Notes: generated from the letters alone by a model not told the origin. A stretch of 64,000 nt of DNA from Nitrospira sp. (GCA_005116965.1 SWDG01000027.1:285882-349881), one strand, 5' to 3'; counted from the stretch's first letter, positions 31,961-64,000 are shown. Translations and numbers: made by a program.

Positions 31961-31990
31961 GAGAACGTTCTGTATCAGTGGTGGTGCTCT

Positions 31991-32674: not shown

Positions 32675-32727
32675 ATTGTCCCAGGAATCTCTTGCAACGG
32701 GTCTAGTCTGTATGTACTCTCCCGCAC

Positions 32728-34217: not shown

Positions 34218-35702
34218 TTAGTAGAAGTTATACCGCAACAAGATGCTGGCGAGAAATGCGCCGTCGTGCCACGTTTCGGTAAAGGCTTTGCCAGGGAAGA
34301 AGTAACCGAGGACAAACTTGGTTTGGAGATGAGGTATTCCCTGATACCCCACCACAAGGTCAACTTCGCTCCCGACATGTTTGCTCAGCCCGGTTGGGTC
34401 TGTGTCCAGGTCTGACCCACGAATGCGCGTCGACACATGGTCTTGCAGGTAATAATGATAGACCAGATCGAATGAGGTTTTTTCAAATGGCCGGACGCCG
34501 AACCCCCCGGTGAAGACCATAAGGTTCGTCAATCTGGGATCCAGCACTTCGCCATAATACTTAAACCGTGCCACGCCATTGAATTTATCGGAATTACCTT
34601 GAAAGCCGCTCTGCCGAAATCGCGCATCGACATTGTCATTCGGGTTACTGTCTCCGGTGCCATAGGCGTACCCAATGGTGATAGACGGTTCCCAAGCTCC
34701 ATCAAAGCGTTGAGTCAGCCCCATATCGATGGCCTCACCTCGAATACGCTGGCCGCCGTCTGAACCGCGCACGGCAGCGGTTTGCAGCCAGTATTTCAAG
34801 TCACCGAAGAGTCGTCCCCCAGACTGGAGGCCAACCGTGACCGGTTGAGCCGTACCGATTCGTTGCTGATCCTGGTAGAGCGCAAAGAGGCCGATATGAT
34901 TTTTCTTGCCGAATTTATAATCGGCATAGGCGTAATAATTGACGAACCCCTCCTCGTCCTCTTCTGCCTCTCGTCTCAGTAGATTCCGTTGAACGAGGTT
35001 GAGTTGGCTGACCGACAGCTCCAGGGAAAATTGTTCATACTGATAGCCAAGCCTAATCGCGTCCATGTTTTCGTTGAACAGCCACCGCCGGGAGTCGATG
35101 AATCTCTGTCTGCCCAATTGCATTCTGGCTCCAGGGACGACGTTTTTCACCGTGAGATAGGCCAAGTTCATATTCAATTCGGTCGTCTGAGGCCGGTCTT
35201 CAATTTCTTCCACCGCGACCGGTATTTCGAGCACAGGGTTCACATACAGCTGCAGATACTGATTGGGCTCATAGGAGAACGCGGGGGCAAGGATGGGGGT
35301 CAGGATGCTATCGGCCTTGCCGAGGGTGGAAGAGAGGCGATAGTTGCGGTTGGTTTCTCCCTCGAGTGAGACATAGCCGCCAACGAAGAGATTGCGACCC
35401 ATGGGGATCGTAGCTCGCGGTGGCGCATTCGGATCAAAGGGCTCGGTCGCTGGAGTGGTCGTCTGCCCGTTAGCGGCGCCGTAGGTTGGAAGAAGTGGGC
35501 CGTTTGTGGACGAAAACCCTGTCGATGGCAGTGTCGGAGATTGTGGGGCCTGCTCAACGCCGCTCTCTGCAGCGTATGCGATGGAGGTAAGCGATAGCGT
35601 ACAAGCTACTGCCATGAGGATCAGCTGTCTTGTACGATCATGGGTCATACGTTTTAGACGCAAAGCGCGAGCTGGCGTTACCCTGTTTGTGTCCATTATC
35701 AA
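34218..35702 (-). CDS. Alginate-export (AlgE)-like outer-membrane beta-barrel protein
   Basis: 494 aa; VPGARMQLGRQRFIDSRRWLFNENMDAIRLGYQYEQFSLELSVSQ; terminal ...ILLRYNFY. Confidence 0.7.
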   Translation of the reverse strand: MIMDTNRVTPARALRLKRMTHDRTRQLILMAVACTLSLTSIAYAAESGVEQAPQSPTLPSTGFSSTNGPLLPTYGAANGQTTTPATEPFDPNAPPRATIPMGRNLFVGGYVSLEGETNRNYRLSSTLGKADSILTPILAPAFSYEPNQYLQLYVNPVLEIPVAVEEIEDRPQTTELNMNLAYLTVKNVVPGARMQLGRQRFIDSRRWLFNENMDAIRLGYQYEQFSLELSVSQLNLVQRNLLRREAEEDEEGFVNYYAYADYKFGKKNHIGLFALYQDQQRIGTAQPVTVGLQSGGRLFGDLKYWLQTAAVRGSDGGQRIRGEAIDMGLTQRFDGAWEPSITIGYAYGTGDSNPNDNVDARFRQSGFQGNSDKFNGVARFKYYGEVLDPRLTNLMVFTGGFGVRPFEKTSFDLVYHYYLQDHVSTRIRGSDLDTDPTGLSKHVGSEVDLVVGYQGIPHLQTKFVLGYFFPGKAFTETWHDGAFLASILLRYNFY

Positions 35703-35714
35703 AACTATGTTGAG

Positions 35715-37547
35715 CTATATCGGGGTATTTGCTTGAAGACGGGGCAGCTCGCCAGATTGTTGCGTGTAGAGGCTGGCGTAGAGCCCCTGGTGGTCCAACA
35801 AGTCCCGGTGTGTGCCCTGTTCGACGAGACGGCCTTGGTCCAGGACCACAATGTGGTCGAATAGTTCCATTCCAACGAAATGGTGGGTAATGACGAGTGT
35901 GGTGCGGTTCTCATGGATACGCGCAATGGTTTCTCGAATATAACTGGCCGATCGATGGTCCAATGACGCAGTGGGCTCGTCCAGAATGAGAATGGAAGGT
36001 TGTTTGACGAGTGCCCGTGCGAGACAGATCCGTTGCCGTTGCCCTCCGGACAGCGTGCTACCGCGTTCTCCGATGATGGTCTGATATCCGTCGGGAAGGC
36101 CCATGATGAATTCATGCGCATTGGCTTCCTGGGCTGCCTCGATGATCTGCTGGTGTGTCGCCTGTTCGATGCCGTAGGCGATATTGTCTGCGATACTGGC
36201 TCGGAATAACATCGTATCTTGGAGGACCACGCCGATGTGTCGGCGAAGTGACTCGCGCTCATAGTCGGCGAGATCGATACGATCGAGCCAGATGGTTCCT
36301 TGCGATGGTTGATAGAGCCGGAGCAACAGGCTGACCAGCGTGGATTTTCCGGCTCCGGATGGGCCGACCAGCGCAACGCGCTGGCCCGGCGCAATCTGAA
36401 AAGAGAGGCTCCGCAGTATCGGATATTCTTTGAGATAGCTGAACGAGACGCGCTCCAATCGAATATCGCCCCGTAGGTGGCGCACTTTAATAGCGTCCGG
36501 GCGGTCATAGATTTCCGGTTCGATGCCAAGTAAATCGGCAATGCGTTGGGCACTGACCATCGCTTTGGAAAATTGGGCCGACAGCTTCGACAGGTCTTTG
36601 ATAGGGCTATAGAGGTTCTTCATATAGCTGACGAAGATGAGCAGGTCGCCCGGTGTCATGCGGGCATTCAGCACCTGCCAGGCTCCGAAAAACACGGTGA
36701 TGGCGGTACTGATTGCCCCGATGATTGAGACGACGCGCGTCACCGCAGCGGTGGTTCTGGCCGTTTGAAGCCCGGTCTGTAAGTGTTTCGTGCTTTCCTG
36801 TTTGAATCGATCTTGTTCAAACCGCTCTCGACCGAATGTTTGGACGACGGAGATGGAGGAGAGGGATTCGCTGAGCTGTGAGGCCATGCGACCATCCTGC
36901 TCCCGCTGATCACGCGTCGTGGCTAAGATTTTCCGATTCAGGATAAAGAGACCGCTGACGAGGATCGGCATCGTGGCGAGAATGATGAGACTGAGCTCCC
37001 AATTGACGATGAACATGACCGTAAACATGCCGATGAACGTGAAGACGTGGCCGGAGACGGCCAACGGAATGTCGGTGAAGGCATTCTTCAAGGTCTGAGT
37101 ATCGCCTGCCAATTTCGTCAACAGTTCCCCGGACCGAGTTTGTGAATGGAACGACAGCGAGAGCCCTTGAACATGGGCGAAGAGATGCTGCCGGATCGTA
37201 AACACCAAGTGGTGGCCGATTTTGCTCGTCACGAACGATTGCGCGTACGAGAGGGCCCCGCTCATGATGGCAATCACGGCAATCGATGCGGCAAGGCCGG
37301 CCAACAGGGTCAATGGCTGGGTGTGATTGAGGGAACTGAGGAAGGCGAGCGATGGAGGAGCCGGCTTCTCCAGCAAGATATGGTCGAGAATGAGTTTGAG
37401 CGGCCATGGCGCCACCAGTTGCATGAGGGTAACACCCAATAGACAGCCTCCGGCCAAGGCTAGGTGTTTCTTGGCTGAGCGTAGATGCGAGACGATGATC
37501 GTTTGAAATCGCGCTCGTCCTCGTAGGTGGATCTCGGTCTGCATCAT
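35715..37547 (-). CDS. MsbA-like ABC exporter, fused TMD-NBD
   Basis: LVGPSGAGKSTLVSLLLRLY Walker A, TLSGGQRQRICLARALVKQPSILILDEPTASLD. Confidence 0.93.
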   Translation of the reverse strand: MMQTEIHLRGRARFQTIIVSHLRSAKKHLALAGGCLLGVTLMQLVAPWPLKLILDHILLEKPAPPSLAFLSSLNHTQPLTLLAGLAASIAVIAIMSGALSYAQSFVTSKIGHHLVFTIRQHLFAHVQGLSLSFHSQTRSGELLTKLAGDTQTLKNAFTDIPLAVSGHVFTFIGMFTVMFIVNWELSLIILATMPILVSGLFILNRKILATTRDQREQDGRMASQLSESLSSISVVQTFGRERFEQDRFKQESTKHLQTGLQTARTTAAVTRVVSIIGAISTAITVFFGAWQVLNARMTPGDLLIFVSYMKNLYSPIKDLSKLSAQFSKAMVSAQRIADLLGIEPEIYDRPDAIKVRHLRGDIRLERVSFSYLKEYPILRSLSFQIAPGQRVALVGPSGAGKSTLVSLLLRLYQPSQGTIWLDRIDLADYERESLRRHIGVVLQDTMLFRASIADNIAYGIEQATHQQIIEAAQEANAHEFIMGLPDGYQTIIGERGSTLSGGQRQRICLARALVKQPSILILDEPTASLDHRSASYIRETIARIHENRTTLVITHHFVGMELFDHIVVLDQGRLVEQGTHRDLLDHQGLYASLYTQQSGELPRLQANTPI

Positions 37548-39580
37548 CGTGGCGTCAGCTGTGATTCCTGTGAGAGCGGGAGCACCGTACGAAACGTATG
37601 GAACCGCACCACGGAGTGGCGGGTCAGCTCGCAGAGTAGCTGATCGAGAAATCTGAAGGCGTCTTTCGTCATGACCTTATGATGGAGCAATAACCCGACG
37701 AGGGGAAGTGCTTCCAACTGCCCAATCAATGTATGGACGATGTCATCCGGGGATTTCATACGGGCTCCTTCTTTCCAAGAGTAGAGATCCAGCGTTGTCG
37801 AAATCTCCCTGAACCGGTACTCGTCAAGACGATCCTTCCCTCGGTCCTTGGACAGCACCTGAAAGCCGAGCTCCTCAAGGGCTCGATAGGTGTCCGTGGT
37901 GCAGCGGTTCCACGGTGGTGTAAAGGCTGGATAAAACAGCTCCTCAAACGTGGATTCAAGAATGGCTTTCCCCTGTGCGATGTCGGTCAGTTGTTGGGTG
38001 AATGAACGGGAAGGGCCGAACTCGCATTTGCGTCCTTCCGGCTCGTGGTTACTGTGCATCCACCCATGTTGGTTGAGGCTCAATAGCGCATGGTCGGCTC
38101 GAAGCGTATTCTTGAGGACGGCCGTCCCGGCCGCCGTCAGCCGGCCTGGAATGATTTCCAGGTTCATCGGCACGCTTCGCGCCAGGGCAAGATCAAGAAG
38201 CTGCTTCAAGGAGTCCTCATCCTCATCAACATCATCATCTCGGAGAAAAAGGTGCAAATCATGTCTTTCTGCCTCTTTAGCATCGAGGAATTGTCGTAAG
38301 GTCATGAGCCATTGGTCCGATTGATGGCTGGATACGGTAGTCGACATGGTATCGGGAGCAAGGGGGCGCATCCGCGTCTGTGCGGCAAGCCGTTCAATGG
38401 TGGCCGCCGCATGTGTCCCGCCGTCGGTATTGATGGAATGCTGGCCAGGGTGGGGCATCGTCAAAGACGCCGCGATCTTTGCAGCCAGCCGATCTGGAGT
38501 CAGGTCTTCCGGCTCCAAGACGGTGAGCTGCCCACGTGTCTCGAGTTTTTTGGCGCGAATGGTTTGCTCGTCATTCTTGTGGCCGGTAAAGGGCAGGACC
38601 AACGCCCTGGTGCCGGTCTTCAAGACATTCATGCAAGTGTTATAACCCGCCATTGAGATGGAGAGTACAGCCTGTTGCATGAGAGCCTGGAACGTCGGAG
38701 TAAATCGCTGGACCTCAATGTGTGGGTGTTGGCTTGCAAGACGGCGGAGTGCTTCATACTGCTGGCCTGGCATGTACGGGCCGGTGAAGACAGCTAGGCG
38801 GTGAGGAAATGTCAACAGGGACGACGCCTGTACGGTGTTGTCTAGCAGCTCATAGCCCACGCGTCCTCCACCGACGCTTGCGAGAATCAACGGAATCTGT
38901 TGGGGTAATGGTGTCAGTGCTCCAACAGGTAGATCGGACTCTGTTTCAGAGTCCTGGGTCACGAAGCCAGTGTACTGCACGTCACAGCGGAGATCCTGGC
39001 AGCGTGAAAAGGTCTCATCCAACGTCTGAAAGGTCGGGTCAGAGTGGATCAGGAGCAGATCAAAGTACTGGTTCATGATACTGACCACCCAGTCTTCATG
39101 GCGAATCTGATCCGACTTCGTGACCAAGATGTCCCGTAAGCTGCACACCACTCGTGTCGAGCCTCCTGCAAGACGGATGTGAGCCAGCAACGGCAGTAAC
39201 TCGAACGCGAACCGCTTTCGCCCAAACGGAAATAGCTCGATGAGCAAGACGTCGGGGCGAATCGCGTCATAGAGTTCCATTAGGCGATGTTTCCTCACCT
39301 GTTGGACCTGTTCGAGTGTCGTGCCGTGGCCGTGAACTTTCAGCTCTTGGAACTCACTATCGGAACTGATCGACGGCAAGTTTTCCATGCTGACCCACGG
39401 TGGAACCTCCACGCCGGAGAGGGATTCACCCCCATTGATAAACGTGACCGCGCACTGTTTGAGTGCGCGCGCGATTGCCATGCTTCTGATGAGATGGCCC
39501 ATGCCAAGGACATGCTGGCAATAGATGAGGACGCGTGGTTGCTCCACGGCCGTTGTCTTGGGAAGCACCTCGTCGTTCAT
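37544..39580 (-). CDS. Fusion: MurG-like glycosyltransferase + NodB-like polysaccharide deacetylase
   Basis: N-terminus RVLIYCQHVLGMGHLIRSMAIARAL; C-terminus LHLFLRDDDVDEDEDSLKQLLDLALARSVPMNLEIIPG...LNQHGWMHSNH...YPAFTPPWNR. Start in ATGA overlap with upstream gene. Confidence 0.82.
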   Translation of the reverse strand: MNDEVLPKTTAVEQPRVLIYCQHVLGMGHLIRSMAIARALKQCAVTFINGGESLSGVEVPPWVSMENLPSISSDSEFQELKVHGHGTTLEQVQQVRKHRLMELYDAIRPDVLLIELFPFGRKRFAFELLPLLAHIRLAGGSTRVVCSLRDILVTKSDQIRHEDWVVSIMNQYFDLLLIHSDPTFQTLDETFSRCQDLRCDVQYTGFVTQDSETESDLPVGALTPLPQQIPLILASVGGGRVGYELLDNTVQASSLLTFPHRLAVFTGPYMPGQQYEALRRLASQHPHIEVQRFTPTFQALMQQAVLSISMAGYNTCMNVLKTGTRALVLPFTGHKNDEQTIRAKKLETRGQLTVLEPEDLTPDRLAAKIAASLTMPHPGQHSINTDGGTHAAATIERLAAQTRMRPLAPDTMSTTVSSHQSDQWLMTLRQFLDAKEAERHDLHLFLRDDDVDEDEDSLKQLLDLALARSVPMNLEIIPGRLTAAGTAVLKNTLRADHALLSLNQHGWMHSNHEPEGRKCEFGPSRSFTQQLTDIAQGKAILESTFEELFYPAFTPPWNRCTTDTYRALEELGFQVLSKDRGKDRLDEYRFREISTTLDLYSWKEGARMKSPDDIVHTLIGQLEALPLVGLLLHHKVMTKDAFRFLDQLLCELTRHSVVRFHTFRTVLPLSQESQLTPR

Positions 39581-40983
39581 ACAGGGAGTCCTCTCTGGGC
39601 CAGTCGCATCATCCCTACAACGATGTCCTCGAAACTTGGCGCAAATCGCAGGAAATGCCGGTAGGCCTTGTTCACTAGTTGCAGGCGAATATGCCACGCC
39701 AACCGTTCGGATAGTAGCTCCCAGGTCACCAGTTTCTTGTAGTGATGGCACAGTTCCGTCGAGATGAGCCTCGAGAATTCTTGATCGGCGAGACGGACGT
39801 GAAGGTCCACGATAAAGTTTGCCAAGTCTTGTAAGGGGTCGCCGACGATGAGTTCGTCGAGGTCACAAAAAATGAGTGTCCCTTCGGCAGCAAGGAGCTG
39901 ATCAATATGGAAATCCCAATGGATGGGGCAAAATGGGACAGCTGATGGAGCAGGGGCTGTCCGCGTAAGGGTATCACCTATCGCACTGATCATATCCGAG
40001 TGCTGTGGAAGTGCATCGGAGAGTTTCCTCAGTTTCTTGCGGATCTCGACCAGATGGTCCTCCGGCAAATGGGCTGCGAGGCCAGCGACGTTGCTGGTGT
40101 GTAGTGAGGAGAGGCCTTGGGCGACGGCTGCCATGTAGTGTTTGTAATTGGAGGTGTCCAGTACTTGGAGAAGCGGCGTGCCTGGCACTCCATGCTGCCA
40201 CACGGTATTGATCTCAGGGCTGTAGCCAAGAGGCTGGGCAATGCCCATTGCCGCTGGATCAGCCAGGGATCGGTCCCAGAAAAACTGTAGGCGCTCATAG
40301 AGGGTTTGCCCCTGTGAGTCGCAAAACGTTTTTCCAAACAGTTCGTCGGTCCGATCCTGCGTCGCGTCATAGAGGGTGTACCGATTGGTGCAACGAATCT
40401 CTGGTCGATAATTCACTACTTGCTGCGCCAAGACCTGAGGGGTGCCCTGTATGCCAATCTGCTTCAGGCCTTCTGATGGGAGATGCTGCTCGATAGCCAC
40501 GAGATCGACAAGATGGCGCAAATGAGGGAGGGCCGGATCGTGTGGAAATCTCCAGAGGATCAGATCGTACTCCGGCATATGGGTCACGGCGTATCGGAAT
40601 TCCATGTCAGACATTCCACTGGGAGTCAGCAGGCGAAAGACCTCCCTGCTGTTACCACGGAGAAATACCTTGGCGTAGAAGATGCGCTGAGAGGCTTGCC
40701 CAGTTGATCCCTCCCTCATCGTGAGGCGATAGCAGGCCGAGAGTGTAGACTTACCCTTGCTGGCCGGTTTGAGGTACGTTTTCAGTTTTGCATCGAGGAT
40801 GACGCAGTCGCTGATTTCATGCGTACCAGTGGAGAGCTCTGGGACACAGGAGCGAAGGATTTGAACAGCGCCTATGGGAGTCGTGAATCGTTGAAAGGTT
40901 CGACGCATGCTCGCCCAATCGGTAGCGACCGATGGTTGGGAAACCTGGTCAATATTCAACGGACTGTGGGTGGTAGACATCAT
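39577..40983 (-). CDS. APH/choline-kinase-like phosphotransferase (paralogue 1)
   Basis: HWDFHIDQLLAAEGTLIFCDLDELIVGDPLQDLANFIVDLHV; ILWRFPHDPALPHL. Confidence 0.78.
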   Translation of the reverse strand: MMSTTHSPLNIDQVSQPSVATDWASMRRTFQRFTTPIGAVQILRSCVPELSTGTHEISDCVILDAKLKTYLKPASKGKSTLSACYRLTMREGSTGQASQRIFYAKVFLRGNSREVFRLLTPSGMSDMEFRYAVTHMPEYDLILWRFPHDPALPHLRHLVDLVAIEQHLPSEGLKQIGIQGTPQVLAQQVVNYRPEIRCTNRYTLYDATQDRTDELFGKTFCDSQGQTLYERLQFFWDRSLADPAAMGIAQPLGYSPEINTVWQHGVPGTPLLQVLDTSNYKHYMAAVAQGLSSLHTSNVAGLAAHLPEDHLVEIRKKLRKLSDALPQHSDMISAIGDTLTRTAPAPSAVPFCPIHWDFHIDQLLAAEGTLIFCDLDELIVGDPLQDLANFIVDLHVRLADQEFSRLISTELCHHYKKLVTWELLSERLAWHIRLQLVNKAYRHFLRFAPSFEDIVVGMMRLAQRGLPV

Positions 40984-42131
40984 CCATGCCCCACGAATGC
41001 CAGGATGTTTGTGAGTACGCGGTCGGCATCGAAATAGGTTTCAGCGATGTCTCGAGCCGCACGACAATGGCCCAGATAATCCCTGTTGATGTCCTCGATG
41101 CCCGCAAGTGCCTCATCCATCGTGCGGAATGTGAGCAGCCCCTTGCCTGTCGGCAGGTGCGATTCAATGCCGGTTGATTGGACAAGCACTGGTCTCCCAG
41201 ACGCTAAGTAGAGAGCGCTTCGGTCGCTGAACCAGCCGACCGAAAATTCGACGACGCGATGATGTGCCACGCTGAATTCTGCACGGGAGTGTGAAATATA
41301 CTTTCTGTAATCCGCCAGCGTGCGAAACATCCTGGGGTCCGTCAGCCGCCAGCCGTTCCGTCGAAACATCTCACCATCGACTTCATCGCGGGGTTGAATC
41401 CGCAGCGCGATTTCCAGCTCCTGCGCAGTATTCTTCGGGAGGTCGATAAACTTGAGCCAACTATCAGATTTTTCACCCGAATCCGTTCCTTGCCACTGGA
41501 AGGTGGTTCGTCCCTTCCAACTGGAGATGGTCGTGAATCGCGTGCTCTCATGATCCAGACAAGTCGGCCACAGTGGGAGAACCACGGGACGTAGGATCGG
41601 ATGCCAGTGACGGTTTCCTGTCGGTAGGCGACAGGCGTCCGTTCCGATATTGAGACCCAAGGTGAACAGGTGATCGTAGTGATCCAACGCCTCGTACTCG
41701 CCGCCACGTTGTTGAAGGAAAACCTGCGTATTACCGGGATTGCCATCGATGTAAAGCCGACATCTCGGATTCGAAAAAATTCCTTCAGCCTTATGCATTT
41801 CGCCGCTTCTCGTCAGCAACACGTCACACCGCTTGGCAACGTTGACTGCTTCGGCGAACGGCATGCCGTGCGTGGCCTCTCCATTCCTGTAAATTAAGCA
41901 ACAACGCGGCCACATGCTGTACTCCCTCATCACGGCTTCGAAGTGCTGTCGGCCATTCCACTGAGCGAAAGGAACTGGTTGATTGGCTGAGTCTGTACAG
42001 CGTCCACGGCCCACATGCTCCATCACGTACACTTCATGGCCGAGTCGTTGCAGACCAACTGGATAGGCCATAATGCTGTCGATATGACCCGCAGTGGCAT
42101 TGGCTATTTTCCCTGTACAGATGATCAACAT
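40980..42131 (-). CDS. CgeB-like glycosyltransferase family protein
   Basis: GKIANATAGHIDSIMAYPVGLQRLGHEVYVMEHVG...VAHHRVVEFSVGWFSDRSALYLASGRPVLVQSTGIESHLPTGKGLLTF. Confidence 0.7.
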   Translation of the reverse strand: MLIICTGKIANATAGHIDSIMAYPVGLQRLGHEVYVMEHVGRGRCTDSANQPVPFAQWNGRQHFEAVMREYSMWPRCCLIYRNGEATHGMPFAEAVNVAKRCDVLLTRSGEMHKAEGIFSNPRCRLYIDGNPGNTQVFLQQRGGEYEALDHYDHLFTLGLNIGTDACRLPTGNRHWHPILRPVVLPLWPTCLDHESTRFTTISSWKGRTTFQWQGTDSGEKSDSWLKFIDLPKNTAQELEIALRIQPRDEVDGEMFRRNGWRLTDPRMFRTLADYRKYISHSRAEFSVAHHRVVEFSVGWFSDRSALYLASGRPVLVQSTGIESHLPTGKGLLTFRTMDEALAGIEDINRDYLGHCRAARDIAETYFDADRVLTNILAFVGHG

Positions 42132-42228
42132 GTACTCAGCGTCCTATCCATGCACATTGGATCGTCGTTTCGACGGACTGTTTGTACATTGTTCTCGACT
42201 TGCTCTTCCCACATCGAACTACTGATCC

Positions 42229-43206
42229 TCACTGCGTGTAGAAGCGGAGGAATTTGTCCCGGACGGCCGGCGCGAGGGACGCTTCCAACTTCTTCCGCGC
42301 GGCCTGTCCCACACGCTTCCGCAGCGCCGGATCGGCTTTGAGGGTCCGGAGGATCTCGACGGCCTCCACGTCGGTATCGAAGAGGAAGCCGTCGACTCGG
42401 TCTTCGATGTACTCGCTGTAGCCACCCCTCCTGTGGCAGACGACGGGCAGTCCGCAGGCCATGGCTTCAGAGACGACCCTGCCGCTGGGCTCGAAATACT
42501 TCTCCGACGTGCGGTAGAAGAAACAATCCAGGCTCTTCAGAAATACATCCGGCTCCTGCCAGCCGGATGGGAGTAAGGTCACCTCTGGTACATCTTCGAG
42601 CTCGCCGGCAAGACATCGGCCCCCCATGATCTTCACACTACCGCCTTCCGAGACAAGGCGGCGGTAGATCCCGACGTCGTCAGGGTGGTGTTTTTTGGAG
42701 TTGTCCCTGCTCAGCCGGCCGATTATGAAGTGCCCGTTTGGTCCATCGCCGCGCTCGCATGCGGCCGGCGCGAACCGTTGCAGATCTATCGGAGACATCT
42801 CGACAGGTCCCGAGAGGCTGCAGGCATCCATAAGCCACCGTGCCGCGAAGACGATCTCCACCTTCGGCTTCCCGAAGCACTGCAGTGTATGCAGGCGGTC
42901 TTGGAGCTGGTCAAGTCGCGATGTGTTGTAGATCAGAATGGTGCGCGTCGGCCGAGCCAGGTCAATCCAGGGCCCGAGCTCGTGATAGACGCCGACGATG
43001 ATGAAGGTGCCGGTCATCGGAAAAGACTTGCTCGAGAGGTCGATTCTGCGCATCGGATAGTCCGAGAAGCGGGGATTCGGCTCCGAAGAGCTCCAGAGCT
43101 GGACGTCGCAGTGCTTGGAGAGTTCTTCGAATAGTCTCAGAGTCCGCCACTCGCTGCCGCCCGACGCGTTCCCCATCGGATTGATCAGATGGACCTGTTT
43201 CACCAT
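42229..43206 (-). CDS. Family 4-like glycosyltransferase
   Basis: MVKQVHLINPMGNASGGSEWRTLRLFEELSKH...FFYRTSEKYFEPSGRVVSEAMACGLPVVCHRRGGYSEYIEDRVDGFLF. Confidence 0.82.
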   Translation of the reverse strand: MVKQVHLINPMGNASGGSEWRTLRLFEELSKHCDVQLWSSSEPNPRFSDYPMRRIDLSSKSFPMTGTFIIVGVYHELGPWIDLARPTRTILIYNTSRLDQLQDRLHTLQCFGKPKVEIVFAARWLMDACSLSGPVEMSPIDLQRFAPAACERGDGPNGHFIIGRLSRDNSKKHHPDDVGIYRRLVSEGGSVKIMGGRCLAGELEDVPEVTLLPSGWQEPDVFLKSLDCFFYRTSEKYFEPSGRVVSEAMACGLPVVCHRRGGYSEYIEDRVDGFLFDTDVEAVEILRTLKADPALRKRVGQAARKKLEASLAPAVRDKFLRFYTQ

Positions 43207-44636: not shown

Positions 44637-44640
44637 GGTT

Positions 44641-45285
44641 CTACACTCTGGACAGCACTCCGGTCTGCTTGCCACCAAGGGCGATCGTGGTCAGCTCTGG
44701 ATGACTGCCGGTGATGATGCGATAAACGCACTGACTCTTGAGTGTCACGTGCGGCCACTGCTCTTCTGGTTGATGCATCAACATGCCGAACAGTGCCCGG
44801 TTTGTATTGCGATGCCCCACGATGAGGATCGTCCCACCGGCTTCATGAACAAGAATATCTTTCAGTACCTGTTTCACCCGTTCCGCCAGATCAATGAACC
44901 GTTCTCCGCCTGGAATCCGATAGGTGCGCTTGTCGTGCTTGCGCGCATCCCACAAGGCACGGGCTTCTGGATCCCGTGCATCACGAAACCGGCCTTCCAG
45001 CACGCCAAAATGCAGCTCGTTCAAGGCGGCCTGCCTCTGGATAGGGAGGCCATGGATCGCAGCAATCGGTCGGGCTGTTTCAATGGTTCGCTTGAGGGCG
45101 CTGGTATAAATTCCTGTAAAACGGATCTCGCAAAACTGGTCTGCCAGCAGGTGACTGTGACGAATACCTGTTAGGGAAAGCGGTGTGTCAAATTGGCCAG
45201 AAACTCGTTTTTCTAAGTTCAACTGACTTTCGCCGTGGCGAATCAGGTAGATCGTGGTTGGTCGAGATGTTGGCTGGCTCGTCAC
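44641..45285 (-). CDS. Histidine phosphatase (phosphoglycerate-mutase-like)
   Basis: IYLIRHGESQLNLEKRVSGQFDTPLSLTGIRHSHLLADQF. Confidence 0.9.
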   Translation of the reverse strand: MTSQPTSRPTTIYLIRHGESQLNLEKRVSGQFDTPLSLTGIRHSHLLADQFCEIRFTGIYTSALKRTIETARPIAAIHGLPIQRQAALNELHFGVLEGRFRDARDPEARALWDARKHDKRTYRIPGGERFIDLAERVKQVLKDILVHEAGGTILIVGHRNTNRALFGMLMHQPEEQWPHVTLKSQCVYRIITGSHPELTTIALGGKQTGVLSRV

Positions 45286-46775
45286 GGTTGCCTGCTCCTC
45301 TCATCGGTTTGGATCCATCCGTCAACTAGCGGTTCCAATGAAAGGGCTTCTGAAATCTTATCTGCAAGCTTCAAGAGATCCTCTACTTGCCCCCGCTGAT
45401 TGTCTTTCAGGCGGGTTATGCATCGGTGCGAGCGCTCGATAACCAACGCCACGGCGGTGAACCAGGCCACGACCGGCTGATCGACTTTCCATGTGACGGA
45501 CTGGTGATAGTGGCTGAGGAACGTTTGCACATGGCTGGCAATCCGGGAGAGTGACAAGTGTTTTGCCAAGGTTCCCGTGAGGAGTCCTGCGGTAAAGCTA
45601 CCGATGTCCCAACCGGGTGGTCCCTCGCACACGTTATCGAGATCGATCAATGCGATCTTGCCGTTTGTCAGGAAGAGGTTTTTCAAGTGAAGATCGCCGT
45701 GAAGTGTTGCGGTCCCGTGAACCTTGATCATTTCGGCTTGGTCCGTCAGTCGGCTCAGCAACGGAATAAGGATGGGTCGGCACGACGGCTGGACACGATT
45801 CAACATGGACCCAACGGCTTCGAGGTTGATGACCAGATCTGCGACCGTGACTGATCGGATCTTCGACAATGGAGTGGCATGGAGTGCCGCAATCGCCTGA
45901 GCGGCCTCCGCGAGGAGGAACGAAATACGTTCGGGGCTCTCGATAGCACAGCACTCCAGTGTGGTGCCGGGAATCCCCAGTTGCCACAACATCTTAAGTC
46001 TGGCGTCGTACCACAAGGGCTGGGCCATGCTCAATTGCCCGCTGCGTCGGGATTCGCTGTTCCACAGTTGTTGCATGACGCGATCGGTCTGAGCGCCTTC
46101 GTCGTCATAGTACGTTTTGCCGAAGATGCTCATGGTCTGGCGTGTCTGTTGAGCAGTGTTCAACAATTCGACCGATGTTCGGACTGTGCAAGTATGCTCG
46201 CCGACATAATGCACAACACGAGAGTGTGTATTGACGACTTGCCACTCAGTGCCCAAATGCGCGAGGAACCACTGAGAGAGGCGTCCGGGTGTGCTCTGGG
46301 CCAGCTGCATCGTCGCCGGCAGCGTGTGCATCTTGCGGTCGTTGGGGAAACTCCACAGCACCATCTCGATGTCTGGCAAATGAATGAGCGGGTTCCTAAA
46401 GCGAGGCTGAACAAGAGCGCGAGCTCCAGATTTCTCCCACTGTGATCGCGAACAGCCTGCTGGGAACGCACGGCCACACACAATGTGTTCTCCACGTTCT
46501 CCTGTCGACGTGTCCTCGATGTCCAGGCGATAGCTGACCATGCAGGACGCGGCCGGTTTGTAGCGAATCTGTATGATTTCGCACTGCCGGACCACAAACT
46601 GTGTTCGGTCACTGGCTGATGCGAAAAGGTAGTCCCCGAACTTGTCTCTCATAACCTCCACATCCAAGATGATCGGCAGCTGAGGAAGACGAGCATCTGT
46701 GGGGAGATCGTTGAGCCTTGTGCTCTTGGGAGGAGCGGAAGAAAACATGTTGTTGATCACGGCATGGTCCATCAT
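45282..46775 (-). CDS. APH/choline-kinase-like phosphotransferase (paralogue 3)
   Basis: TLHGDLHLKNLFLTNGKIALIDLDNVCEGPPGWDIGSF; MVLWSFPNDRKMHTLP. Confidence 0.78.
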   Translation of the reverse strand: MMDHAVINNMFSSAPPKSTRLNDLPTDARLPQLPIILDVEVMRDKFGDYLFASASDRTQFVVRQCEIIQIRYKPAASCMVSYRLDIEDTSTGERGEHIVCGRAFPAGCSRSQWEKSGARALVQPRFRNPLIHLPDIEMVLWSFPNDRKMHTLPATMQLAQSTPGRLSQWFLAHLGTEWQVVNTHSRVVHYVGEHTCTVRTSVELLNTAQQTRQTMSIFGKTYYDDEGAQTDRVMQQLWNSESRRSGQLSMAQPLWYDARLKMLWQLGIPGTTLECCAIESPERISFLLAEAAQAIAALHATPLSKIRSVTVADLVINLEAVGSMLNRVQPSCRPILIPLLSRLTDQAEMIKVHGTATLHGDLHLKNLFLTNGKIALIDLDNVCEGPPGWDIGSFTAGLLTGTLAKHLSLSRIASHVQTFLSHYHQSVTWKVDQPVVAWFTAVALVIERSHRCITRLKDNQRGQVEDLLKLADKISEALSLEPLVDGWIQTDERSRQP

Positions 46776-46778
46776 GAT

Positions 46779-48776
46779 TCAGGCCTGATACCGAAATAGA
46801 AGACGTCCCTCCTGGTTTGTTCGAGAGACACGCACATGTTTCGGAGAAGCGTGTTCAGGTACCTCGAATGCCTGGGTCGTCTCGTCGGTAAATACCAGTT
46901 CATCGGTATATCGGTGTCCATTGTGAGTAATCGTGATCTGTGCCGACGCTCGTTCGCCCAAGAGGAGAGCCTGAGGTCCTCTATCAGGTTCCGGCGTCTC
47001 AATGGAGATGAACGGTTCGTCACCCTTGTAGGGATACAGTACGGTGAGGAAGCATGTGCTTGAGTCGTGTTGAGTGAGCCGCACGATCGGCGCGCGCTGT
47101 TTTTCACCGTACACGCAGGACACAAAGCCTTCCAGGATAGAAGGGCGCACGTTCGGAATGAGAGGCTGAGCGAGAATAAGTTTCGGCGAATGGATCGCCA
47201 GTGTGTTATCCGACACCATGATCGAGACCTGATCCTGCGCCGGAGGCGACAGGTGAAACAACAGGTCGTAGGTATGGGACTCGGGGGCTCTCAAGAGGTC
47301 AACAATCACCCAGTATTCCCTGTTGACGAACAGCACCTTCCGCTCGTGAACAACAGGGTATTCATGACTCCTGGCTACCCCATGCAGATAATCGAACCCG
47401 GGCTCATGGATGAACGCTTTGCTCTCCCGCTCAGGCTCGGGGCCGGAAATCTTGAACCGATTCCTTTTCCACTCATACCGAGTTTGATTCAGTCCATCCA
47501 CCAGCACAGTGTTGTGAGCCGCAGTACTGCGAAAGCGGACACGCCAATTGACCGGTCCTGATTCATCATAGGTGTAGCGCCCTGGATCCATGATGAGCGG
47601 TGTGCCATAGGCATAGGCTTCGAAGCTGAGCAAATCCACATGCCCATGATTCCCAACGCCCAACGGGCCGCAGTCGAAGATCAAGTAGCGTTCATCCTGA
47701 TACGCTTCGGTCTGGTCGCCCCAGCCGCTTCGCAATACGTAATAGCCTGCGTGGGGAAATCCTTTTGAGCGGCTGACTGGAGGCTGTCCCTGAGCTCCTC
47801 GTGATGCAACATAGAGGAGGTCCTCTCCGCCATAGAGTTCGTAGCCCTGCTGTAAGAGGTCCAAGAAACAGCGGCTATCGCCGTCACTGAGCGCGGGGAT
47901 CATGCCGTCAGGTCTGTGGGAATAGAGTGAAAACTCCAAAGCCTTCTTCACGAGCAGGTCAAACTCCGCCGGCATTTCGATCTGGTTTAGGAGGGCAAGC
48001 TTCTTGATCCAGAGGTAATTCTTGAGCACCAGATGGTGGTAGTCGGTGGATTGTTCGCAGTGGACCCCGTCGGGCAGGAGATCGGAGTGAATATTTTTCA
48101 CCAGTTCGTCTTTAGACCAACTCAGCCATTCTGAAGATTCGACGAATTCTGGAAACACGATGGCTGCCAAGAAGATCGCGCAGAGTTCCAATGTTCGGTG
48201 ATTTCGAGCCGGGGTGACATGGTCTCTAAGGTAGGAGAGCTGCTGATGCAGTGACTCCAAGAAAGAACCATAGAACTCGGGTGTGACACAGTGTGGCTGT
48301 CCGTTACTCACGAAATAGTAGTGGGCGAAGATCCAATTCTGGATGCGTCGTCCGGCAACATCGCTCGGGAGGAAGTCGCGGGGGACGGTACCAATCCACG
48401 AGTTCGTCAACTCAACCCATTTCTCGGCGTAGTGAGGCGCATGTGTCTCGTGATAAGCCATGCCGAGCCCGACAGCGTAATAAAATTTGTGCAGCAGGAT
48501 CTGCCATTCCCGGTCGTTGCTGGGGTTAGTAAGCCACTGGATCGATCCAGGCAACTGGTGTCGTTCGCCGTTGAACTCAAATTGGTTGTCCAAGATGTGA
48601 TCGATTTTGGAACGAGCCGTCTCGACCACGTCTGGAACCGGGAAATAGTGGACCGTCGGCCTGGTTTGGAAATGCTGCAGTAGGGCTTCTGCGGTCAACC
48701 TTCGAAAGGGTGTCGTGAAAATATGCCGGCGATCCGTCTTCTCAGACGGCTGATGCTGACTAGTGGCAAGCAGCAT
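46779..48776 (-). CDS. Heparinase II/III-like (alginate-lyase type) protein
   Basis: GSIQWLTNPSNDREWQILLHKFYYAVGLGMAYHETHAPHYAEKWVELTNSWI; GVGNHGHVDLLSFEAYAYGTPLIMDPGRYTYDESGPVNWRVRFRSTAAHNTVLVDGLNQ. Confidence 0.88.
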   Translation of the reverse strand: MLLATSQHQPSEKTDRRHIFTTPFRRLTAEALLQHFQTRPTVHYFPVPDVVETARSKIDHILDNQFEFNGERHQLPGSIQWLTNPSNDREWQILLHKFYYAVGLGMAYHETHAPHYAEKWVELTNSWIGTVPRDFLPSDVAGRRIQNWIFAHYYFVSNGQPHCVTPEFYGSFLESLHQQLSYLRDHVTPARNHRTLELCAIFLAAIVFPEFVESSEWLSWSKDELVKNIHSDLLPDGVHCEQSTDYHHLVLKNYLWIKKLALLNQIEMPAEFDLLVKKALEFSLYSHRPDGMIPALSDGDSRCFLDLLQQGYELYGGEDLLYVASRGAQGQPPVSRSKGFPHAGYYVLRSGWGDQTEAYQDERYLIFDCGPLGVGNHGHVDLLSFEAYAYGTPLIMDPGRYTYDESGPVNWRVRFRSTAAHNTVLVDGLNQTRYEWKRNRFKISGPEPERESKAFIHEPGFDYLHGVARSHEYPVVHERKVLFVNREYWVIVDLLRAPESHTYDLLFHLSPPAQDQVSIMVSDNTLAIHSPKLILAQPLIPNVRPSILEGFVSCVYGEKQRAPIVRLTQHDSSTCFLTVLYPYKGDEPFISIETPEPDRGPQALLLGERASAQITITHNGHRYTDELVFTDETTQAFEVPEHASPKHVRVSRTNQEGRLLFRYQA

Positions 48777-51417
48777 GGGCCTCCTGCTGGTGGGCGGTAG
48801 CCTCAGCCGCTTCTGCCTGAAAGAGATCAAAGAGAGTTCTCGTTGTCTTGCGTGAGTCGAAGATTCGGCAAATTGTTTCACGCCCTGCCTGGGCGAGACT
48901 GTTCCGGAAGTCAGCGTCGACCAGCAGTTCTTCGATGGCTTTGGCGAGGGCCACTGGGTCGCGTGGCGCGACAAGAAGCCCGTTGCATCGATCGTCAATC
49001 AATTCTGGAATGCCGGAGACTGCGGTCGAAATGACCGGGACGCCGGAGGCCATGGCTTCCGCCAAGACGTTTGGAATCCCGTCACGATCACCGTTATCTA
49101 CGATATGACAAGGAAGGACGAAGATGGTCGATCCCTGATAGATCGCGCGGAGTTCCTCTTGCGATACGCCAGAGCCGATTGAAACCTCCTGTTCGAGGTG
49201 ATACCGGCGAATCAAGTCCTGTACCAAATCCGTCTGTTCATCCGGCTCACCGACGATTCGGCAGTGAAACGGCAATCCATGCTCTCTGATGATGCGGCAG
49301 GCCTCGATCAAGAAGGGAAACCCTTTCTTCTCCACAAAGCGTCCGACCGAGAGGATCGTCGGAATCGGAGGGACCTGTCGATCAACGGAGGGAGCAAAGC
49401 AAGCCGTATCGACGCCATGATAGATGGTATGGATCGGCGCACCCTGTGAGCAAACCTCTTGCAAGTGATGGTGGTTCGCGCCGGTGCAGGTCACCACAAA
49501 CTTTGCCCGGCGCAATTTGAGGCGCAGAAGATCGCCGGGATTGAGTTTTGGCAAGTAGATATCTTTGGCATGGGCGGTAAAGCTAAAGGGGAGATCACTC
49601 AATAGACCGGCAAACATGGCCATAGTCGTCGCTCCATGGCAAAAATGGGCATGCAGATGGCGAATATTTCCCGCATTGAGCACGGAACTGGCAATCGAAC
49701 CGGCACGGAGAAAGTCCTTGTAGAACACTTTCTTCGGCCATGAGAAGAACGTGCTTCGGCAGCGTAGGCTGAGTGTCCAGGCTTCCCATGCGGTGCGTAG
49801 GTATCGACGCGGTACGGTACGGATCAGTCGAAGATGACTGGAGAGATACCGAGGAAAGTTGCCGAGGAGCCATGCCAGAAATCCACTATCCGTTCGCTCA
49901 TGGTCTTCAGGCAGATAGGTCAGTAGCGATTGCAGGGGCCTTGTTTGGCCATCTGTGAAAACTGGTTCGCCTTGAAAGGCGGAGAAGAGCTGAAGCTGAA
50001 GCCCCATCCGTTCCAACAATAGAATCTCGTTCGTGATGAACGCTTCTGATCGGCGGGGAAATCCTTTCAAGACATAGCCAATCTTGTTGGCTGGTCCTGT
50101 GGATGCCGTATGGATGGGGATATTGCGGTGTTCGGGATGGTCGAGCGGGGTAAGCTCATGTGAGAGGTCCGCCCGGTCGGCCGTCAATGTCTCTCTGAGA
50201 AGGAGCGCTTTGAGACCTTGGCTGCCCTGGCTTGACGAAAATCGTTGCACGATCGTCTCGCGTCCCGCCTGCCCGAGGCGTTCACGGAGCGCCGGATTCT
50301 CAATGAGGTGGGCCAGAGCCAGGGCCAACGCTTCTGGGTCTCGTTGGGGGACCAGGAAACCATTGTCATCATGCCGGACGAGCTCAGGAATGCCGGATAC
50401 CTCTGTGGTCACAACCGGAAGCCGACAGGCCATGGCCTCCATGAGGACATTTGGAATGCCATCACGATCGCCGTCTTGAGACACCTGACAGGGCAGGGCA
50501 AAGATGTCAGCCTCTTGGTAGAGCGCCACTACTTCTTCGAGCGTTTTTTGTCCGACCAATGTCACGACCTGTTCGAGGTCTAACTCACGAATCATGGCTT
50601 CCAGATTGGCTTGAAGCGGTCCGCATCCAACAATGCGACAGCGAAAGCGATAGCCACGGATGGCCAGCAGATGGCAGGCGCGAAGGAGCGTGGGAAATCC
50701 TTTTTTGTCTCGGAAACGCCCCACGCTCACAATGGTGGGAACCGTCACAGGTCTTACTGAGACATTCGTGCCTAGCTGATCAAACCGCTCCAGATTCAGG
50801 CCGTGATAGAGACAATGGATCGGCGTGTCGCTGTCTGATATGTCTTGGAGATACCGACGATTATGTTCGGTGCAGGTGACGACGAATGCTGCATGGCGCA
50901 TTTTCCTGCGGAGTGTCGACGGAGCGGCCAGGAAGATGTCCTTGGCATGGCCTGTCATGCTGTAGGGAATTCCAGTGAATCGGTGAGTCAGCTCCGCGAC
51001 GCTCGTGGGGGCATTCGCGAAGTGGACATGGAGGTGGCCAATGTGTTGGTCTTGAAGTGCGGTGGCTAATGAGCCTGCCTGGACAAATTTCGACCACGAT
51101 GGTCGGCCTACAGTGTGAAGCCAAAAACGCAGGGTCGTCAGATAGCGTCGGGGAGATCGAAGGACCAGACGCATGTGGGCCCACAGGGGACTGTTGCGGA
51201 AGGTCAAAAACGAATCAGGCAGATAGGTGACAGATGCGCGGACATGAGCGGCCAGGCCGTGGGTGATGGTATCGGTTGGGGATTGGAGAGCGTAGATCGA
51301 AAGATTCACGCCCAGCGCTTCCAAGTCCAGGACCTCTTGAAGAATGAACGTCTCCGAGACCTTGGGGAAAATTTTAAGGAGATAGCCGATTTTCTTCGTG
51401 GTAGATTCGGTCGGCAT
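48760..51417 (-). CDS. Tandem GT4-GT4 two-domain glycosyltransferase
   Basis: 885 aa with two homologous halves: KIGYLLKIFPKVSETFILQEVLDLE / KIGYVLKGFPRRSEAFITNEILLLE and two GDRDGIPNVLMEAMAC / GDRDGIPNVLAEAMAS motifs. Confidence 0.9.
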   Translation of the reverse strand: MPTESTTKKIGYLLKIFPKVSETFILQEVLDLEALGVNLSIYALQSPTDTITHGLAAHVRASVTYLPDSFLTFRNSPLWAHMRLVLRSPRRYLTTLRFWLHTVGRPSWSKFVQAGSLATALQDQHIGHLHVHFANAPTSVAELTHRFTGIPYSMTGHAKDIFLAAPSTLRRKMRHAAFVVTCTEHNRRYLQDISDSDTPIHCLYHGLNLERFDQLGTNVSVRPVTVPTIVSVGRFRDKKGFPTLLRACHLLAIRGYRFRCRIVGCGPLQANLEAMIRELDLEQVVTLVGQKTLEEVVALYQEADIFALPCQVSQDGDRDGIPNVLMEAMACRLPVVTTEVSGIPELVRHDDNGFLVPQRDPEALALALAHLIENPALRERLGQAGRETIVQRFSSSQGSQGLKALLLRETLTADRADLSHELTPLDHPEHRNIPIHTASTGPANKIGYVLKGFPRRSEAFITNEILLLERMGLQLQLFSAFQGEPVFTDGQTRPLQSLLTYLPEDHERTDSGFLAWLLGNFPRYLSSHLRLIRTVPRRYLRTAWEAWTLSLRCRSTFFSWPKKVFYKDFLRAGSIASSVLNAGNIRHLHAHFCHGATTMAMFAGLLSDLPFSFTAHAKDIYLPKLNPGDLLRLKLRRAKFVVTCTGANHHHLQEVCSQGAPIHTIYHGVDTACFAPSVDRQVPPIPTILSVGRFVEKKGFPFLIEACRIIREHGLPFHCRIVGEPDEQTDLVQDLIRRYHLEQEVSIGSGVSQEELRAIYQGSTIFVLPCHIVDNGDRDGIPNVLAEAMASGVPVISTAVSGIPELIDDRCNGLLVAPRDPVALAKAIEELLVDADFRNSLAQAGRETICRIFDSRKTTRTLFDLFQAEAAEATAHQQEAHAACH

Positions 51418-51420
51418 GGT

Positions 51421-52695
51421 CTAGATCGGCAAGCTTTCCGCTCTCAGTCTCGGCAGCGTGTGAACATTTGAAGGGCGAGGTATGAGAGGGTGGTTAGTCC
51501 TGATGTCTTGGACATCCACGAAGAGTTGCTTCATGGCCTTCGAAACGTTGGCGGCGCCATCAAGGGGAATCCCGATATCCTCCGAGCGAGGGGGACGTGG
51601 CCGTTGAAGCGACTGCATGATGGCATGAAACAGGCGAGTGGAGGTCAACTTGGTGGGGTGAATCATCTCCAGAAGCCCCTTCGCCGCAAGACGTTCCGCG
51701 CGGATACACTGTTCAAGGCGCGGATGGACGCGCGGGACGATGATCCCACGTTGGTTGGCTGCCAGAATCTCCACAATGGTGTTATATCCCCCCATGGACA
51801 CGACGAGATCGGCGGCGGTTAAATACTCGTACAGACGCGGGGTGAAATCCGTGACCGTTAAGGCCAGCTCAGTATTCGCGGCTTGCTGTAGACGGAGGCG
51901 TTTACGCGGGTCCATCAACGGACCGGTGACGAGAAACGTATCGAACGTCGGGCGCCTCCCCCCAAACTGTTTCCGCAGCATGGCGATGTAAGTTTTTAAG
52001 AGCGAATAGCCATCGTCCCCGCCACCAGGCGTAACCAGCACCAACCGATCAGTCTGCAGCTGTAATTGTTCTCGAATGCGCTCCCGAGAGAGTTTGGGCT
52101 GATGTCTGCCCACATAGCCGCAAGAGACGATCTTCTTTCCAATGCTGTGCGAGAGCCCGTATTCCTCGACAGGATCGTAGATCGCGCGCGAACCGTAGAG
52201 AAAAATCGCATGGTACGTATTCTTCAACAACGGCAGGGTGCCGGATTTGGCCCATTCGGCGTGAACATGGTCGGGATGGTCCTCGATGTCCCGCATGCCC
52301 AATACAATTCTGGTTGAAGGCGATTTGGTTTTAAGAAATTGGAGGGCCGGCAAGAGTTCCCCGCGTATGCCTGCCGGGGCCTTATCGACCAAGAGGATGT
52401 CGGGGCGCAGATTGCGAACGCTCTCGAGAATGATTCGTTGACGCAGCTTTAGAGTGATATCGATCGTATGCGGAAGCAGGCGCGAACAATACTGTCCGCC
52501 GGAATCCTTGGTGAGCGCCGGCAGTTTGATGTATTCCATGCGTTCAGGCAACGCGTATGCGTGAGCCTGCATGGAACCGGTCAGCATGATCAGCGATGCA
52601 TCAGGGATGCTTTCGGATAGGTGCGTCGCGATTTCAAGGCTGCGGCGAATATGGCCGAGACCATAGCTATCGTGTGAGTAGAGCATAATCAACAT
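51421..52695 (-). CDS. MurG-like glycosyltransferase
   Basis: MLIMLYSHDSYGLGHIRRSLEIATHL...ADLVVSMGGYNTIVEILAANQRGIIVPRVHPRLEQCIRAERLAAKGL. Confidence 0.85.
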   Translation of the reverse strand: MLIMLYSHDSYGLGHIRRSLEIATHLSESIPDASLIMLTGSMQAHAYALPERMEYIKLPALTKDSGGQYCSRLLPHTIDITLKLRQRIILESVRNLRPDILLVDKAPAGIRGELLPALQFLKTKSPSTRIVLGMRDIEDHPDHVHAEWAKSGTLPLLKNTYHAIFLYGSRAIYDPVEEYGLSHSIGKKIVSCGYVGRHQPKLSRERIREQLQLQTDRLVLVTPGGGDDGYSLLKTYIAMLRKQFGGRRPTFDTFLVTGPLMDPRKRLRLQQAANTELALTVTDFTPRLYEYLTAADLVVSMGGYNTIVEILAANQRGIIVPRVHPRLEQCIRAERLAAKGLLEMIHPTKLTSTRLFHAIMQSLQRPRPPRSEDIGIPLDGAANVSKAMKQLFVDVQDIRTNHPLIPRPSNVHTLPRLRAESLPI

Positions 52696-52902: not shown

Positions 52903-53319
52903 TTACTTTGCATGGACTTCCATTAGAAGGCCAGAAGGAGAATAGGACCTACGAAGACCTGCGATTGTTGCAACCAGATCTTCGAATGCAAATGGTTTTG
53001 CAAGATACGCATCCGCACCCGCCGCCTTGCTCACTCGTTCTGTTTCTGGGGTGCCTTTGGCGGTCATGATCAGGATAGGAGATTCCACTCGTCGCCGGCG
53101 AAGTGTTTGGCAGAGGTCGAGTCCGTCATCCGCCCCGAGAAAGATATCGATGATGAGAAGGTCGTAGAATCGGGCGTTGACCATATCGATGGCTTGAGAC
53201 GTTCCTGAAGCAACATCTATGTTGAAGTCTTCAGCTTCAAGCCCGCGCTTCATGAAACCAACAATTCGCTCATCGTCTTCGACGATCAAGATGTGCACAG
53301 CCTTGCCTTTCTTGAGCAT
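52903..53319 (-). CDS. Receiver-only response regulator (looks like OmpR-type lacking its effector domain)
   Basis: HILIVEDDERIVGFMKRGLEAEDFNIDV...LAKPFAFEDLVATIAGLRRSYS, then stop. Confidence 0.82.
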   Translation of the reverse strand: MLKKGKAVHILIVEDDERIVGFMKRGLEAEDFNIDVASGTSQAIDMVNARFYDLLIIDIFLGADDGLDLCQTLRRRRVESPILIMTAKGTPETERVSKAAGADAYLAKPFAFEDLVATIAGLRRSYSPSGLLMEVHAK

Positions 53320-53617
53320 ATGGGGAGTCCCGCAACCTGACCTAGGTAGTGATCGTACTCGGAAAATATAAGAAGCGAATGAGCATAAGATGAGAAATTA
53401 GTAAGAAACGAGATGGAGTTGGAGAAGCGCCTTCTACAGACTCGAAGAGAAGAGATCTTAGCTTACACTTGGAAGCAGGCGTGTGCAGATGTGACGCCTA
53501 GTTCGGTGTTCAGATAAGGAGAAGTCGGTAATGGCTATGCTCGACGCGCGCGCTGCAGCCGATAGTGCGAAATAACCGGGCTCGACTAGATCAGAAATCG
53601 GCACACTCCCGGTGAGA

Positions 53618-57130: not shown

Positions 57131-57156
57131 GATTCCTCCCATTAGATTGAGGCACG

Positions 57157-63763: not shown

Positions 63764-64000
63764 TTATGGACTCTCGATAATCAGAATGACTTTAGTGAGG
63801 CCGTCATCGATCTGCCTGTACCGTGACAAACTGACATACCCGATTGCGCCTTCGATTGTGCCGACAAAGCGCAAGACGGCGTCGTCCGACCGCTCAATCA
63901 CGCTCTGCACAGGAATCGGCGTGCCTTGGCGGTAAAAGACTTGATCTGGTTTGGCATTCAAGACTTGAAGGTAAAATTCCTTTCTCGTCTCAGCTGACAT
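63764..64000 (-). CDS. Phosphate-binding-protein-like (PBP) domain protein, probably truncated by the window edge
   Basis: LQVLNAKPDQVFYRQGTPIPVQSVIERSDDAVLRFVGTIEGAIGYVSLSRYRQIDDGLTKVI. Confidence 0.6.
   Translation of the reverse strand: MSAETRKEFYLQVLNAKPDQVFYRQGTPIPVQSVIERSDDAVLRFVGTIEGAIGYVSLSRYRQIDDGLTKVILIIESP

Follow-up and report, generated by a model that had tools for sequence, protein, structure and literature searches.

The twelve co-directional genes on the minus strand between positions 34218 and 52695 of the window (the whole 64,000-nt stretch of Nitrospira DNA that was analysed) probably specify a dedicated system for the assembly and export of a surface glycan or glycolipid, equipped with a sensor of its own. 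On the best reading of the sequence, the product would be a phosphorylated, partly de-N-acetylated and probably uronate-containing glycan or glycolipid that is assembled in the cytosol and leaves it through a dedicated MsbA-type exporter. The original prediction for this DNA held up with respect to the domain identities, the view of the genes as a single unit and the lack of textbook pathway genes, whereas trimming after export, the absence of a polymerase and the extent of the locus had to be revised.

Open reading frames were found at or near the predicted positions of all twelve genes, which are transcribed in the order of Table 1, from the GT28 enzyme to the AlgE-like barrel, and the identities proposed for them agree with the Pfam assignments. 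When the junctions were read directly, the proposed ATGA overlaps were seen at 40983/40980, 39580/39577 and 37547/37544, but the one at 45285/45282 is GTGA. Corrected starts are likely for the lyase (about 48776, giving 665 aa and overlapping the last codons of the GT4-GT4 gene), K2 (about 44636), the GT4 enzyme (about 43206) and the GT28-NodB fusion, hereafter GT-NodB (39580). The GT28 enzyme keeps its position in many Nitrospira relatives at 65–96% identity, and the CgeB-like gene, although the weakest assignment, is conserved at 64–94% among relatives. The GT4-GT4 protein scores barely above the cut-off of the NCBIfam EpsE model (403 bits against 400), and the phosphatase falls under that of CobC (122.3 against 162.9). 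The operon is not a GC island (55.8% compared with 54.7% for the window), and in promoter and terminator scans matches were rarer than in shuffled sequences. Next to it, at 31349–33114, an ECF sigma factor gene is followed by two CBM48 genes, of which one encodes a protein that ends in an AMPK1_CBM/CBM48 domain and the other a small protein; such ECF sigma/CBM48 genes adjoin the operon also in loci L105, L096 and L075.

Table 1. Genes of the operon, in order of transcription, followed by those of the upstream module (positions in the window except for the last row).
Feature	Position	Strand	Evidence and remarks
GT28/MurG-like glycosyltransferase	51421..52695	-	operon gene 1; PF04101 C-terminal domain 9.6e-12
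GT4-GT4 glycosyltransferase	48760..51417	-	PF00534 9.9e-76; two GT4 domains
Heparinase III-like (PL12-type) lyase	46779..48776	-	Pfam Hepar_II_III N 5e-41, C 5e-37; ORF reaches 48998, likely start ATG 48776
K1, APH-fold kinase, tandem N-lobes	45282..46775	-	PF01636 1.0e-11; HGDLHLKN...DLDN
Histidine phosphatase branch 1, alpha-ribazole-phosphatase-like	44641..45285	-	PF00300 (His_Phos_1) 2e-46; accessory
K2, APH-fold kinase, tandem N-lobes	43200..44636	-	PF01636 5.3e-15; HGDFQFGN...DFDD
GT4 glycosyltransferase	42229..43206	-	PF00534 9e-17; accessory
CgeB-like glycosyltransferase	40980..42131	-	Glyco_trans_1_2 E 5e-4, under its cut-off; accessory
K3, APH-fold kinase, tandem N-lobes	39577..40983	-	PF01636 2.9e-8; loop HWDFHIDQ...DLDE, usual Asn replaced
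GT28-NodB/DUF2334 deacetylase fusion	37544..39580	-	PF04101 2e-14; PF10096 5.7e-7
MsbA-type ABC exporter, membrane and ATPase domains fused	35715..37547	-	ABC_membrane (PF00664) 1.7e-52; ABC_tran (PF00005) 9e-39
AlgE-like outer-membrane barrel	34218..35702	-	Alginate_exp PF13372 3e-34; N-terminal hydrophobic signal (hydropathy); accessory
RR1, receiver-only response regulator	52903..53319	-	PF00072 7e-25; directly upstream of operon
OmpR-type response regulator	60727..61419	-	relatives: 74–85% identity, just upstream of RR1
HAMP-PAS histidine kinase	61516..63753	-	relatives: 71–82%, adjoins OmpR
PstS-like periplasmic binding protein	63773..64000	-	cut by window end
Porin-like gene	G000:C12:350117-351367		beyond window, after PstS-like gene

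That these genes form one system, as had been proposed, is borne out by the recurrence of the same gene order in independent genomes of several lineages, and the gene-neighbourhood check likewise found the set together in other genomes. A search of 59 relatives for K2 and GT-NodB gave strong matches to both in the same six genomes of the same genus, although in one genome a contig end interrupts the block; in these six the order of the block is the same and identity is mostly 60–87%. Among 35 same-genus genomes, kinase and GT-NodB were both present in 6 and both absent from 29 (p = 6e-7, a value in which shared ancestry and linkage are not factored in). With GT-NodB as the marker gene, the operon was counted in 20 of 175 genomes of the family and in 19 of 396 of a phylum sample, and a scan of genome contigs gave 24 loci. 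The core, made up of GT28, GT4, GT4, lyase, K1, K2/K3, GT-NodB and ABC genes, is kept in order in Nitrospira, in most other Nitrospirota, on a Manganitrophus plasmid, where the copy is frameshifted (possibly by read errors), and in an Anaerolineales genome, where it lies on a 1.5 Mb contig and stops after the ABC gene. Part of the core is present on an acidobacterial contig, and reduced relatives with a kinase, a GT28 or GT4 gene and an ABC gene are found in another family of Nitrospirota as well as on contigs that carry the labels Betaproteobacteria, Gemmatimonadetes and KSB1.

By gene content, the AlgE-like barrel, the phosphatase, the CgeB-like and GT4 enzymes and one kinase are accessory, and a minimal form of eight genes is found in Anaerolineales. 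The phosphatase had no match in clusters L088, L090, L092 and L093, the GT4 enzyme is absent from G031/L107, and the GT4-GT4 gene is split in two in L088, L092 and L093. The barrel is absent from the Anaerolineales copy, as expected if it serves passage across an outer membrane. In the GT-NodB tree this copy is nested among those of Nitrospirota (support 95/93, on long branches), a placement which suggests that it was acquired by transfer. In its GT-NodB (L088/G199), the linker that joins the two domains (residues about 398–457) has about 30 other matches in the genome at 55–88% identity, several with in-frame stops, and it seems that a dispersed repeat has been inserted in frame within the gene. 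Several variants were also noted. Five loci (L087, L089, L092, L097 and L103) have an additional lyase of divergent sequence, in many cases accompanied by K1 and phosphatase genes that are likewise divergent, which represents either a tandem duplication or an alternative cassette. In the other Nitrospirota family the kinase is fused to the GT28 enzyme (L077 and L080), and in L077 the fusion adjoins an ABC exporter of 50% identity; a related K1-like kinase lies near GlgC-like and GH57-like genes in L078. One contig labelled Nitrosospira (L096, CAADGK010000015.1) falls inside Nitrospira in both trees and is probably a mislabelled comammox bin ('CMX').

The locus is larger than originally proposed: the twelve genes stand, but a sensor and regulator module belongs with them. 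In relatives, the stretch directly upstream of the operon encodes, in this order, a porin-like protein, a short binding protein of PstS-like type, a HAMP-PAS histidine kinase, the OmpR regulator and RR1, and RR1 is kept just upstream of GT28 at 43–85% identity. The porin-like protein (433 aa), which has no Pfam match, is encoded in 26 of 175 family genomes, namely in 20/20 of those with GT-NodB as against 6/155 of the others (p = 2e-21, shared ancestry and linkage not being factored in). Its position and co-occurrence suggest that the module regulates the operon. In the window, an insert of about 7 kb (53320–60726) parts OmpR from RR1, whereas the module is contiguous with the operon in relatives; the insert holds genes for DUF6502, DUF5666, cytochrome-like proteins, a CxxCH protein of 446 aa and another receiver, and a close relative (G118) has only part of it. 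The one clear case of the module with no operon behind it is G175. In G004, G151, G165 and G172 the module occurs without the operon on the stretch examined, some of these stretches ending at or near contig ends. An apparent loss of the operon in G116 was rejected, as the sequence at the junction consists of N and marks a scaffold gap, which gives no evidence of deletion. This gap (contig C15, L142, 14614–14716) takes exactly the place of the operon, with the histidine kinase gene on one side and the barrel gene on the other, which suggests that strain variation breaks the assembly at this position.

The sequences of the enzymes are those of cytosolic proteins, without signal peptides, and the active-site residues of the lyase and of the NodB domain are intact, as are those of most kinases. 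The catalytic residues of the heparinase HepIII (4MMH) are Asn240, Tyr294 and His424 (PMC12088678). Aligned to 4MMH, the lyase of the operon keeps them as N192, Y246 and H377, and they are invariant in 16 sequences. An AF2 model of the lyase (pLDDT 82.9) had HepC/HepIII at the top of its Foldseek matches, with human dermatan sulfate epimerase in twentieth place, which favours a lyase activity, an epimerase being less likely; against the NCBIfam HepC model the protein scores 137 bits, below the cut-off of 700. No signal peptide was found in any ortholog of the lyase by inspection and hydropathy; a secreted lyase was rejected on this ground, and the proposed trimming after export is unlikely. 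As it carries no signal peptide, the enzyme probably acts in the cytosol. To our knowledge, there is no precedent open to testing for a cytosolic heparinase-type lyase in biosynthesis, and this counts against the best reading. In the NodB domain, the motifs RDDD, HGxxH and FTPPWNR occur in 18/18 orthologs checked; the Asp/His/His metal site of NodB/DUF2334 enzymes is thus present, and PF10096 matches over its cut-off.

The three kinases are assigned to the APH kinase family, as their PF01636 matches all exceed the curated Pfam cut-off and catalytic HxD and DxD elements of an HxD...DxD site are present in each. K3 and most relatives of K2 have Gln in place of the usual Asn. In the AF2 model of K2 (pLDDT 85.6, pTM 0.84), a beta-beta-beta-alpha-beta-beta unit is found twice (residues 47–131 and 171–253), followed by a single C-lobe, and the two halves of the N-lobe region align with each other as profiles (HHalign probability 95%, E 2.5e-8). 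The lysine of the second lobe is invariant. The best Foldseek matches in the PDB were APH(2'')-Ib and choline-kinase-like folds. Since the query TM-score was at most 0.46 among the 50 matches listed, none of these 50 covers both N-lobes. Maltokinase, which bears an extra N-terminal cap, may be a possible comparison for the first of them. From fold and context, the kinases may phosphorylate the glycan. APH folds also phosphorylate many substrates other than sugars, which counts against this assignment.

The exporter is distinct from the lipid A flippase: it reaches 454.9 bits on the MsbA model (TIGR02203, cut-off 602), and the genome encodes a better match elsewhere, a true MsbA on contig C6 (620.9 bits), among seven PF00664 proteins in all. 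With each of the other named exporter models listed, too, its score stays under the cut-off. The barrel is well above the cut-off of PF13372 (118.9 bits against 25.2) and matches AlgE itself at 8e-9 over the C-terminal part. With regard to the textbook pathways, Pfam detects neither Wzx nor Wzy in the twelve genes and most of their neighbours. A single exporter with PF00664 and PF00005 takes the place of the separate ABC-2 permease and ATPase of Kps/Wzm-Wzt, and the operon has no membrane glycosyltransferase or GT2 synthase by hydropathy and Pfam, all of which agrees with the original prediction. An initiating phosphoglycosyltransferase is indeed missing within the locus, but there are two copies of PF02397 elsewhere in the genome, on other contigs, and supply from outside the locus is therefore possible. 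Similarly, no gene for Wzy or a synthase was found, but it does not follow that there is no polymerase, as GT4-GT4 proteins can be cytosolic polymerases; for the same reason the product may be an oligosaccharide or a polysaccharide.

Among known systems, the locus appears to work most like Wzk/PglK-type export in Helicobacter and Campylobacter, where soluble glycosyltransferases build a glycan in the cytosol and an MsbA-type half-transporter is used rather than Wzx or Wzm/Wzt. However, the exporter here gains 191.7 bits with the PglK model (NF050066), which has a cut-off of 1000, the locus has no initiating transferase, and nothing in Wzk/PglK systems corresponds to its kinases, its NodB fusion, its cytosolic lyase or its AlgE-like barrel. 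An MsbA-type exporter for a glycan is shared with the cyclic glucan (NdvA/ChvA) and heterocyst (HepA) systems, but the scores are 278.1 of 585 bits for ChvA and 396.5 of 725 bits for HepA, and a synthase for cyclic glucan is lacking. Kinases, soluble glycosyltransferases and an MsbA-type flippase are also combined when the LPS core is phosphorylated and moved by MsbA; here, in contrast, the kinases are of the APH family and not WaaP, and the true MsbA is encoded elsewhere. The alginate pathway has an AlgE-family barrel and a uronate-type lyase, whereas this locus lacks Alg8/44/K, its lyase is HepIII-like and unsecreted, and export is by an ABC protein. The Bacillus spore-surface genes CotS/CotSA/CgeB likewise place an APH-like kinase beside GT4 and CgeB-like glycosyltransferases, but they include no exporter or lyase, and K2 matches CotS (TIGR02906) only weakly (1.8e-4; 20.5 of 172.7 bits, far below the cut-off). 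The locus thus fits no named system as a whole; it is grouped here with ABC-exporter-dependent glycan assembly, with a fair chance that it represents a distinct class.

In the mechanism that we propose, the six glycosyltransferase domains would work in the cytosol, where they build up an oligo- or polysaccharide chain on a lipid of the membrane. The GT28 enzyme perhaps starts the process by the first transfer onto the lipid acceptor, presumably in the way known for its family (MurG, UgtP). An acetyl group would be taken off by the NodB domain, and sugar residues would receive phosphate from two to four kinases with tandem N-lobes; still before export, a stretch that contains uronate may be cut or edited by the heparinase III-like enzyme. 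Transport across the inner membrane would then fall to the MsbA-type exporter and, where there is an outer membrane, the AlgE-like barrel would pass the product or a released part to the outside. The PAS histidine kinase/OmpR pair, with the PstS-like protein and the porin, may switch the system on in response to a signal. It also speaks against this best reading that the locus has no initiating transferase or acceptor-specific gene and that the sensor module also occurs alone, as in G175.

Three other explanations have to be weighed. First, the locus could decorate a glycan or lipid A core made elsewhere, its glycosyltransferases, kinases and deacetylase acting on a lipid-linked glycan begun by one of the two initiating transferases outside it and the ABC protein being an accessory flippase. 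The two PF02397 transferases outside the locus and the lack of an initiating enzyme within it would fit, and kinases acting on LPS core sugars are known (WaaP/WaaY); but six glycosyltransferase domains, a dedicated exporter and a barrel exceed what decoration needs, and the same core is found in a genome of Anaerolineales, a group thought to lack LPS, so that we consider this unlikely. Second, the product could be a diffusible, aminoglycoside-like saccharide, with the kinases protecting the producer, the ABC protein exporting the phosphorylated form and the phosphatase activating it. Such a logic is that of streptomycin-type clusters, with their APH kinases, MsbA-type exporter, phosphatase, glycosyltransferase and deacetylase, and aminoglycoside kinases are among the top Foldseek matches. 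It is nevertheless very improbable, as the twelve genes include none for cyclitol, aminotransferase or deoxysugar functions, the phosphatase, which several clusters do without, shows neither a signal nor a membrane segment, and the lyase and AlgE-like barrel do not fit. Third, uptake and degradation of a uronate glycan, entering through the barrel, cut by the lyase and activated by the kinases, is hardly credible: the HepIII-type active site is intact and outer-membrane barrels can serve uptake, but the ABC protein is exporter-type, the operon has no import permease and six glycosyltransferase domains, the lyase has no signal peptide and the Nitrospira host is lithoautotrophic.

The genome of the host (3.7 Mb, 99% complete) has Nitrospira as most of its named relatives and is taken to be that of a comammox Nitrospira, as it has its own amoA (ammonia monooxygenase subunit A, C1:46572-47279). 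Ammonia monooxygenase (AMO) is encoded in 61 of the 175 family genomes, in 18/20 of those with GT-NodB but 43/155 of the others (p = 9e-8, ignoring phylogeny). A strict restriction to comammox was rejected: the two exceptions, G006 and G011, have the operon but neither AmoA nor AmoB, and many comammox genomes are without it. The six genomes with the sensor module and no GT-NodB match all show AmoA or AmoB. It is tempting, though doubtful, to speculate that the locus defines a separate class of surface-glycan assembly, with soluble enzymes that make a phosphoglycan, tandem-N-lobe kinases, a biosynthetic, cytosolic heparinase-type lyase or epimerase, an MsbA-type exporter of its own and a switch formed by the porin, the PstS-like protein and the PAS kinase, found within Nitrospiraceae mainly in comammox members.

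No characterised locus with such a gene set was matched in Pfam, NCBIfam, the PDB or open-access papers, and no description of such a pathway was found in the literature and databases searched. A search that covered mainly open-access papers gave no literature on heparinase, APH kinase and MsbA together, and in the same coverage titles and abstracts on extracellular polysaccharides of Nitrospira or comammox bacteria held nothing relevant. The unit of sensor and operon, about 30 kb, moves as a whole; it is present in more than one phylum and once on a plasmid, and nearly all Nitrospiraceae genomes that contain it also bear amo. In soils, sand filters and drinking water, complete nitrification is the work of comammox Nitrospira, which often live there in biofilms. 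If a phosphoglycan is made, the locus would give a heparinase-type enzyme a biosynthetic role, provide a two-N-lobe kinase architecture beyond the structural matches listed and extend the known export routes by one that the textbook pathways do not include.
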